A stretch of DNA of 64,000 nt from Anastatus disparis (lineage: Eukaryota > Arthropoda > Insecta > Hymenoptera > Eupelmidae). The notes below the pieces were generated by a model that was not told the origin of the DNA, did no database searches, and was given only the letters and a program-made list of their open reading frames with translations. Positions 13,201-14,587 of the stretch are shown one piece after another. Position numbers and translations under genes: made by a program. The stretch is from NCBI GenBank assembly GCA_017163975.1, contig JAFFSR010000245.1, positions 1,503,001 through 1,567,000 on the forward strand, in the 5' to 3' direction. Positions within the stretch are counted from its first letter, which is position 1. The number at the start of each line of letters is the position of its first letter.

Positions 13201-14587
13201 CCTCGTAGAGGTCATCCTAGGCGCAGAGGAACCTGTAAATCGGAATCAACCCAACAGGAATTTTAGCAACAGCTATAATTTTGACTTTGCAACTCAAAAT
13301 GGTAATTACCCTCACACGACAGGAGAAAGTCAAATTAGGGAACCCAGTCCAGAAAACCTTAACCATGACATCATCACACCCAATCAAGATGATGACCAAT
13401 CAGTCGAGGTTACCATAAACACCCGAACTAACGCCAGAACCAACGAAACTCAACATAAGCCTAGAAATACCCAAGAGAGTGTTGTACAAACGCCCACTAA
13501 GAGCGAAATACGAGCTCCATTAAGGACTTATGTAAACAAAAAGAAAATAAGGTTCAGTCAGCAAAGTCAAGTCATGGAGATCCCTCCCAAAGAATTAGCT
13601 GGGAAGAGATACTCAATGCCCAAAGCAATCCCGCTAAACGAGATATTCACAGATCTGAAACAAAGGAAATGGATTATTGGACCATCAATTGGTATTGGTG
13701 GATTCGGTGAGATTTACGCCGCCGCCCCATACACAGGTACGATCCCAAAAGACTACCCAGTAGTGATCAAGGTAGAGCCTCATAAAAATGGACCCTTGTT
13801 CGTCGAGATGCATTTCTACATGCGAGCAGCCCTCCCAGACATGTTATCAGACTGGGCAGAGGAGGAATTAATCTCAGAAGTTGGATTACCTCAGTATTTC
13901 GGCGCAGGTAGTCATAAAATCGACAAGCAAGAATACAGATTTGTGGTATTAAAAAGATACGACCTTAACCTAGAAAAACTATTCTTGAAAGCAGATAAAA
14001 TGTTTCCTGAATACACAGTGTACCATTTGGCTTGGACCATCCTAATAGCCCTAAAGTACATGCATCAAAAAGGTTACGTACATAACGATATTAAAAATTC
14101 CAACATACTCATAGACAAGAGCAAGAAAGATATGGTGTATCTAGCAGATTTTGGTCTGTCCTGTAAATTCAAAACCGACATTGAGTTTAAACCAGACCCC
14201 AAAAAAGCCAATAACGGCACGCTAGAATTCATGAGCCGCGATGCCCATCAAGGAGTCCTCACAAGAAGAGGAGACTTTGAATCACTAGGTTACAATATGA
14301 TCACCTGGGCAGGCGGTAAATTGACTTGGCACGAAAAACTCGATGGCCAAGAAGCAGTCTTCGAACTCAAAAATTCAGCCTTCGCAGACCCTCCAGAATT
14401 CATAGAAAAGTGTTTTGGCGATCAAGACCACCCTCAGATAATTGACGAATATTTCAGAGAAATATCTCAATACGAGCATAACCAAACGCCCGATTATCAC
14501 AAATTACACACAATTCTGGCAGCAGGAATGTGCAATCTAAATCACTTCCCATTCGAGGATTTTTATCCACACTTGGATCATGACTAA
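10211..14587 (+). CDS. pol: Gypsy 1 pol polyprotein with C-terminal VRK-type protein kinase
   Basis: 1,458 residues in one uninterrupted frame. Protease: FLVDTGAEVSVIP, catalytic D5. Reverse transcriptase: YIDD at 301-304. RNase H follows. Integrase: an HHCC finger, then D741, D800 and E836 as the DD35E triad. An Asn-rich linker (about 1005-1130) leads to a kinase domain, about 1154-1458. Kinase features are the glycine loop GIGGFG (1161-1166), ATP lysine K1187 in VVIKVEP, helix-C E1199, catalytic loop HNDIKNSN (D1293, K1295, N1298), DFG at 1313-1315, and the VRK-specific GTLEFMSRDAHQG and RRGDFESLGY blocks. These identify the VRK/NHK-1 branch of the casein-kinase-1 group. VRK kinases phosphorylate BAF and histones. 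The VRK C-terminal tail is absent. The start is uncertain, because the same frame is open upstream from about 10118. Confidence 0.92.
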   Translation: MFLVDTGAEVSVIPRTQDNKEAPHAFKLYAANNTVINTYGTKYIELNLNLRKAIKWHFIIADVPYPILGGDILEHYHLLPDLKRRLLADGETLLTTSLHGHKVNEIKISVIKPDCKYAQLLSQFQEVIGIDNPTPILEQGVAHCIKTNGPPIAQRVRRLGPEKLTAAKKEFKDLCKLGICRPSSSPWASPIHMVPKKDKTWRICGDYRQLNAVTVPDRYPVPHIQDFPTLLHGKTIFTSLDLQKAYHQIPVEKDDIPKTAVITPFGLFEYAVMTFGLRNAAQTFQRYVNKALSDLDFVFVYIDDILIASTSEEEHEKHLRIVLQRLKDYHLHLNIDKCTFGVQELTFLGYEISADGFKPAKDKVEAVKNFPKPQTIDDLRRFLGMINFYRRCIPKAAKTHVALNRHIKDAKKKDKRPVVWDKPSESAFEQAKKELAETTYLAFPDPSAETRVVTDASDISMGAVLEQKEGDTWRPLAFFSRKFSPSQLNYSVYDRELTAVYEALKYFHYYLDMREFTIITDHRPLTFAFSQSAEKSSKRQIRQITYISEFNTQIKYIPGSDNVVADALSRIESLGTAAEINWDSPETRLDAKSKNLVSSSDAISIPMLFSPEQLSREQLNDEQLREILNDPEHPLKLQRLSWRQDDYPLYCDIHQNTIRPYIPVSLRRETFDIYHSRAHPSANVTDKLIRQKFVWPNMSRDVKTWAKECIRCQTSKVTRHNKFLPEHFVVPDNRFSHVHIDLVGPLPDSEGFKYILTMIDRYSRWPEATPVKDITAPTIARAFYDTWISRYGSPAILTTDQGSQFESQLFRSLLEVIGCQRIRTAAYHPQANGMIERWHRVLKAAIKCSTNNDNWTRVLSSVMLGLRTCIRLDTEASPADFVFGTTLRLPGEFFAFGEFEPDRHIFLEEFREYIRKIQPVPIAHKHAIKPFVFKELASCTHVFYRNKAKVGLDKPYTGPHKVISRHDNGRNFVIDINGQNKTVAVEMLKPAYYVPNDLVEVILGAEEPVNRNQPNRNFSNSYNFDFATQNGNYPHTTGESQIREPSPENLNHDIITPNQDDDQSVEVTINTRTNARTNETQHKPRNTQESVVQTPTKSEIRAPLRTYVNKKKIRFSQQSQVMEIPPKELAGKRYSMPKAIPLNEIFTDLKQRKWIIGPSIGIGGFGEIYAAAPYTGTIPKDYPVVIKVEPHKNGPLFVEMHFYMRAALPDMLSDWAEEELISEVGLPQYFGAGSHKIDKQEYRFVVLKRYDLNLEKLFLKADKMFPEYTVYHLAWTILIALKYMHQKGYVHNDIKNSNILIDKSKKDMVYLADFGLSCKFKTDIEFKPDPKKANNGTLEFMSRDAHQGVLTRRGDFESLGYNMITWAGGKLTWHEKLDGQEAVFELKNSAFADPPEFIEKCFGDQDHPQIIDEYFREISQYEHNQTPDYHKLHTILAAGMCNLNHFPFEDFYPHLDHD
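13670..14584 (+). other. VRK-family kinase domain within Gypsy 1 pol
   Basis: Sub-feature of pol. The segment resembles insect VRK/NHK-1 from just before the glycine loop (a TDL..W entry) to just past the last kinase helix (EHNQTPDYHKL). It has no intron, no stop and no loss of catalytic residues. The usual end of pol in this clade, an RTY..KKKIRF basic stretch near residue 1120, is retained just before it, so the kinase was added after a complete pol. The captured piece is probably of cDNA origin. Whether it is cleaved from pol by the element protease is unknown. Confidence 0.93.

Follow-up and report, generated by a model that had tools for sequence, protein, structure and literature searches.

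A VRK1-type kinase fused to the integrase of Ty3/Gypsy retrotransposons in Anastatus disparis, in catalytically complete and predicted pseudokinase forms

RESULTS

The pol frame of a Ty3/Gypsy element ends in a VRK1-type kinase

We analyzed a stretch of 64,000 nucleotides from the wasp Anastatus disparis (assembly GCA_017163975.1, contig JAFFSR010000245.1, positions 1,503,001 to 1,567,000 of the forward strand; hereafter the window), in which a long terminal repeat (LTR) retrotransposon carries a kinase domain of the VRK family in one reading frame with its integrase. The element is of the Ty3/Gypsy type, with LTRs, a target-site duplication, gag and the order protease, reverse transcriptase, RNase H and integrase, and its family is repeated across the genome. 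Its features, in window coordinates, are:

6712..6715, no strand: target-site duplication GTAA, left (set by comparison of copies)
6716..7032, + strand: 5' LTR, 317 bp, one mismatch to the 3' LTR (end from comparing three copies)
7034..7051, + strand: primer-binding-site-like sequence directly 3' of the 5' LTR (label from position)
8660..10078, + strand: gag open reading frame (ORF), 472 aa, DUF7041 (ORF list, Pfam)
10211..14587, + strand: pol-kinase ORF, 1458 aa from ATG; the open frame is 1488 aa from 10121
10214..10438, + strand: aspartyl protease, RVP (Pfam)
10790..11266, + strand: reverse transcriptase, RVT_1 (Pfam)
11468..11860, + strand: RNase H (Pfam)
12194..12697, + strand: integrase zinc-binding and core domains, H2C2 and rve (Pfam)
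13151..13600, + strand: fast-evolving linker from the integrase C-terminal region to the kinase
13601..14584, + strand: VRK1-type kinase domain with full catalytic set, intronless, without the VRK1 C-terminal tail
15408..15423, + strand: purine-rich tract adjoining the 3' LTR, polypurine-tract-like (label from position)
15424..15740, + strand: 3' LTR (comparison of copies)
15741..15744, no strand: target-site duplication GTAA, right

The original prediction, made from the letters alone, had described a pol frame at 10211-14587 that stays open through protease, reverse transcriptase, RNase H, integrase and kinase, and both the ORF list and the Pfam order (RVP, RVT_1, RNase H, H2C2, rve, then Pkinase) agree with it. 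The kinase itself stood, with its start moved from the proposed 13670 to about 13601, where VRK similarity begins. The near-identical LTRs were likewise borne out, whereas the proposed 5-bp target duplication was not: it fits the window copy and fails for a second copy, and the best-agreeing solution across three copies (window, L002 and L003) is an LTR of 317 bp with a 4-bp duplication. Each of the three LTR-bounded copies has its own target duplication (GTAA in the window, CACG and TTTT in the other two), and the kinase did move with the element as proposed. Because their LTR pairs differ at only 1, 1 and 2 sites, the three copies look like recent insertions. Of 37 loci searched, six (L001-L005 and L028) have the window-type LTR downstream of the kinase. 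No ORF of at least 100 aa (ATG, GTG or TTG start) that could represent an envelope of the errantivirus type was found in 14587-15423, and Pfam detected no chromodomain at the integrase C-terminus in the pol pieces (E 0.001), as a chromovirus would have.

The terminal 328 residues of pol (13601-14584) match human VRK1 over 310 residues with E=4e-69, far more strongly than the best casein kinase 1 match (E=1.9e-19), and the tree described below places them within hymenopteran VRK1, in line with the predicted VRK identity. The predicted structure (mean pLDDT 90.4) has VRK1 crystal structures as its best match in the PDB (TM 0.88). All the motifs cited in the original prediction (K1187, E1199, HNDIKNSN, DFG, GTLEF..RDAHQG and RRGDFESLGY) are present. 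The window kinase retains 51 of the 54 sites that are invariant in 37 arthropod VRKs, and it has the majority residue at 30 of the 119 sites that vary among them. It is about 46-51% identical to hymenopteran VRK1 among the protein matches listed. The pol frame terminates 18 residues beyond the VRK1-aligned stretch, and the element kinases aligned lack the long basic tail with which cellular VRK1 ends at its C-terminus.

The fusion recurs across the genome

The 939-Mb genome holds at least 33 places with a close kinase (63-100% identity) and at least 83 with a distant one (26-38%), the outcome of the screen for further copies that had been called for. The kinase query returned 123 rows, with 122 of 327 candidates scored, and the counts are lower bounds; removal of seven rows (five second fragments and two host VRK exons) left 116 places. 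The fusion of kinase and integrase is present on many contigs, and open frames of 1438-1499 aa are found among close and distant copies alike; frames of at least 1100 aa hold 26 of the 116 kinase places (4/11, 4/22 and 18/83 by identity class). In the loci examined by tblastn the kinase adjoins integrase, except that at L024 linker and kinase alone matched. A listed kinase match follows on the same strand, at most 2.5 kb downstream, for 25 of 26 integrase matches at 75% identity or more and for 33 of 99 at 60-75%, a lower bound, with 125 of 9730 integrase candidates scored. The lone close exception, L041, has lost its frame shortly after integrase, and at L043 a distant kinase absent from the kinase match list lies downstream of integrase. 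A single chance fusion is excluded by this recurrence together with the three LTR-bounded copies, and a chimeric assembly, the other concern raised beforehand, by the recurrence and by the copies' own target duplications.

The close copies are catalytically complete and the distant copies appear to be pseudokinases

K57, D163, K165, N168 and D183 are retained in all 25 close copies read, a count that leaves out L025 and L027-L030 (split matches) and in which broken copies were read with X at stops. Other key sites vary in few close copies: G31 (two copies), G33 (one), E69 (two), H161 (one), G185 (one) and R213 (one).

The distant group differs at the DFG motif, a loss that the original prediction did not foresee. 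In the 33 distant loci read, the position of the aspartate is occupied by G in 28, S in one, W in one (a broken copy) and D in three; the aspartate is thus lost in 30 of 33, and each of the three loci with D carries an internal stop. The glycine loop is altered too in all six distant kinases aligned. The two distant domains tested remain VRK by sequence (E 1e-37 and 4e-36), and a kinase fold that has lost the DFG aspartate would make the distant group pseudokinases. One distant kinase, L067 (G000 C269:6125514-6126464), retains HNDVKLGN and DFG with one stop inside, which fits a loss of catalysis after capture.

The kinase is under purifying selection within both groups

We estimated dN/dS by the Nei-Gojobori method with our own script, in 22 pairs chosen from 21 loci whose kinase is uninterrupted. 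In the close group the kinase gave 0.086 (L001-L013), 0.111 (L001-L009), 0.130 (L001-L021) and 0.163 (L013-L021), and in the distant group 0.112 (L034-L035) and 0.155 (L035-L037), with Fisher p from 2e-25 to 7e-48 in four pairs (L001-L013, L001-L009, L013-L021 and L034-L035). Values for diverged pairs within groups are thus about 0.08-0.16 (distant pairs 0.11-0.16), and the kinase is under purifying selection between intact, diverged copies within groups, as the original prediction required of a functional cargo. As an independent control, nucleotide identity between L001 and L009 falls from 0.85-0.94 in the kinase to 0.34-0.46 well past the stop; a similar drop, with no remaining alignment, was seen past the kinase stop in L001-L013 and L001-L021. 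In L013-L016, a young pair, similarity carries on beyond the stop. In the pairs with measured selection, a captured catalytic kinase has become a conserved module that is probably non-catalytic.

The kinase probably derives from one hymenopteran VRK1 and has passed between element lineages

The tree with VRK relatives that had been called for was built from 49 rows, and all 12 element kinases in it form one clade (98/89) inside hymenopteran VRK1 (100/100), near Prorops (89/78). When analyzed alone, close copies group with Chalcidoidea (74/99) and distant copies are nested inside Chalcidoidea (100/99); a grouping with Aculeata is not rejected (p-AU 0.43), and the tree tool flagged long element branches. 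The exons of the host VRK have their best four protein matches in the chalcid wasps Trichomalopsis, Eretmocerus, Phymastichus and Trichogramma. Because the host VRK gene is split by introns and the element kinase has none, the capture would have been from an mRNA. Tree and missing introns together point to a likely single capture event at the RNA level, in which a hymenopteran VRK1 mRNA lost its C-terminal tail, within the limits that the long branches set on support. In composition at third positions the kinase (A.35, C.28, G.16, T.21) resembles pol (A.36, C.30, G.14, T.21), which fits long residence in the element, and is unlike one zinc-finger ORF taken as host-like (A.40, C.07, G.09, T.44).

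The close group, both distant groups and a sister lineage (L044, L045 and L047) fall together (87/88) in a tree of integrases; for two of these sister loci (L038 and L042) the 3' ORF read was a different one. Similarity between L035 and L037 is 0.69-0.82 over most of integrase and 0.95-0.98 in linker and kinase, with dS of 0.16 in the kinase against about 4 in integrase. Since linker and kinase are near-identical while integrase is nearly saturated at synonymous sites, the kinase module has crossed from one element lineage to another, probably through template switching.

DISCUSSION

A proposed role at integration

BAF (barrier-to-autointegration factor) owes its name to the protection of retroviral DNA against autointegration, and VRK1 is one of the main kinases that phosphorylate it. 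In flies, chromatin is freed when NHK-1 phosphorylates BAF, and NHK-1 that has lost its kinase activity by mutation can still bind BAF (PMC2965759). Among poxvirus proteins, B1 inactivates BAF; its paralog B12, a pseudokinase, copurifies with VRK1 and redistributes BAF (PMC6395007, PMC9175622). BAF is the best-known VRK partner tied to DNA integration, and by analogy with these systems it is the most likely, if tentative, partner of the element kinase. The host has BAF genes: six exon-level matches look by position like three genes.

The fusion likely helps insertion through BAF or chromatin. Tentatively, and with slightly more doubt than conviction, we propose that the kinase works in the pre-integration complex. 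Our prediction is that the kinase domain binds BAF, a DNA-clamping protein, and in the catalytically complete lineage also phosphorylates it, whereby element DNA would be released for insertion. A kinase carried on integrase may act as a timed release rather than as a simple antagonist, because BAF also shields transposon DNA from autointegration. If the VRK fold can go on binding without catalysis, the conservation of both forms would be accounted for. In a fuller version, which we think rather improbable as a whole, Gypsy elements would have evolved VRK control of BAF independently of B1 and B12 and in parallel to them: the integrase-tethered kinase would strip BAF from element DNA at integration, the pseudokinases of sister lineages would hold BAF or host VRK1, and modules would be swapped between lineages.

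Several observations weigh against the BAF proposal or narrow it. Since the DFG aspartate is absent from most distant loci read, catalysis would not be required by every lineage; phosphorylation could not then be the function common to both groups, and a purely enzymatic account of BAF phosphorylation must widen to include binding. BAF inhibits autointegration of Sleeping Beauty and piggyBac (PMC3952818); it can thus aid integrating elements, and its removal could be costly unless it coincides with contact to chromatin. The majority of kinase copies are broken or partial, and the choice of loci with uninterrupted kinases for dN/dS favours intact copies. Integrase is under tighter constraint than the kinase (0.043 in L001-L013 and 0.030 in L034-L035; 0.02-0.05 in diverged, non-saturated pairs). 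Young pairs give kinase values of 0.11-0.27 on few changes, and L032-L033 differ by four nonsynonymous and no synonymous changes. Because close-to-distant pairs give 0.20 (L001-L032) and 0.45 (L001-L034) at saturated dS, constraint may have relaxed or changed between the groups. The donor group within Hymenoptera differs between trees, with long branches. In the window copy three in-frame stops (TAA at 10076 and two at 10115-10120) separate gag from pol within their common frame. The direct evidence covers anatomy and selection, and kinase activity and contact with BAF are predicted.

Among other explanations, the VRK module might be a chromatin-targeting arm of integrase in the slot that a chromodomain occupies elsewhere, binding nucleosomes or host VRK1 on chromatin and steering insertion, with catalysis optional. 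We regard this as somewhat unlikely. The fixed place directly C-terminal to integrase and the conservation of pseudokinase forms in the pairs tested speak for it; the five core catalytic residues kept in every close copy read go beyond the need of a pure tether. The contact of VRK1 with the nucleosome acidic patch sits in the C-terminal tail (PMC11734890), the very part missing from the element kinases aligned, which argues against such an arm and equally against chromatin opening through that contact. It is also conceivable, and in our judgment improbable, that the kinase targets the element's own Gag or integrase, in particle disassembly or nuclear entry, or host cell-cycle or germline proteins such as those of oocyte chromatin, instead of BAF at integration. 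Fusion to pol would put the kinase in the particle, and NHK-1 governs oocyte chromatin through BAF and apparently through a second, independent pathway (PMC2965759), but nothing in our analysis points to Gag or integrase as substrate and the pseudokinase lineages would require another role.

That the kinase is a trapped VRK1 cDNA hitch-hiking without function for the element seems very improbable. Capture of genes by LTR elements is known, for example from a survey of rice and sorghum (PMC3726574), and the many broken or partial kinase places would suit a passenger. This explanation nevertheless appears largely refuted by the dN/dS of 0.08-0.16 across diverged within-group pairs, by open frames of 1438-1499 aa in several lineages, by the vanishing of alignment past the kinase stop in three diverged pairs, and by the preferential retention of host-invariant sites (51/54 against 30/119 variable ones).

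Relation to known systems

To our knowledge, no integrating element brings its own VRK. The element kinases share sequence family, fold and, in the close group, the catalytic set with animal VRK1/NHK-1, and are nested in hymenopteran VRK1; they differ in being fused to integrase, intronless and without the C-terminal tail, and the distant group mostly lacks the DFG aspartate. B1 and B12 belong to the VRK family. A viral genome with an active kinase and a paralogous pseudokinase resembles the present case, although here the carrier is an LTR retrotransposon instead of a DNA virus, the two forms sit in different element lineages, fused to pol, and a B1-like action on BAF is suggested by analogy. 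Chromoviruses have a chromodomain at the integrase C-terminus and so likewise an extra domain there, whereas ours has a kinase fold, with no chromodomain by Pfam. Transforming retroviruses too are retroelements with a captured cellular kinase, src for example; such captures are usually recent and take the place of viral genes, but the present element has a full set of pol domains and its kinase has been conserved in diverged lineages. Orchid Ty3/Gypsy elements with an AlkB m6A demethylase ORF (PMC9289625) also gained and retained a host-type enzyme domain, in a plant and in an extra ORF, whereas the insect kinase lies in the pol frame after integrase.

No VRK-bearing retrotransposon was described in the open-licence literature searched (titles and abstract starts listed). 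The protein searches covered the best-ranked matches, not longer gag-pol proteins, and imply no absence in other species: none of the best 120 of 384 matches to the kinase region (about 527-1677 aa), and none of the 97 matches of a second kinase search, has a Pfam retroelement domain, and the best 120 of 1757 pol relatives (7976 candidates scored) have no Pfam kinase domain. When the same 120 pol relatives were searched by hmmsearch with a profile built from the element kinases, none matched, and the blastp matches listed all have E of at least 1.1. No relative was found in the viral contigs and prokaryote genome contigs scanned. LTR elements with captured enzymes are already known; an integrase-fused VRK, apparently selected across diverged lineages and a predicted pseudokinase in some, was not met among the literature and protein matches listed. 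Anastatus wasps have genomes of 951-963 Mb with recent LTR bursts (PMC9613689), and VRK, kinase and BAF do not occur in the main text of that paper. Because one genome contains both complete and pseudokinase forms of a selected integrase-VRK fusion, the role of VRK-BAF control in integration can be put to a direct test. The fusion also offers a natural series for a captured enzyme turning into a conserved non-catalytic module.

Other observations

The host BAF matches lie at G000 C224:2805651-2810496 and C227:2260168-2260520, with two genes side by side, and a duplication of host BAF is possible.

Sister Gypsy lineages at L038:2-1519 (- strand), L042:2-1570 (- strand) and L039:611-1369 (- strand), with integrase ends 54-66% identical, have, in the place of the kinase, which was not detected, a different long 3' ORF (at least 250-520 aa). 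This ORF gave sub-threshold LRR_NXF matches in L038 and L042 (E 0.04-0.12) and no match in L039, and it is possibly another captured host module.

Two further elements of this type lie in the window. A third Gypsy-type pol at 32221-38865 has a Tf2-type SH3 domain at its integrase end, followed by a 285-aa ORF (38008-38865) without family assignment. The second Gypsy element, at 56836-62043, has a pol ORF without kinase that is 43% identical over RNase H-integrase, a DUF7041 gag and an identical 300-bp terminal repeat pair.
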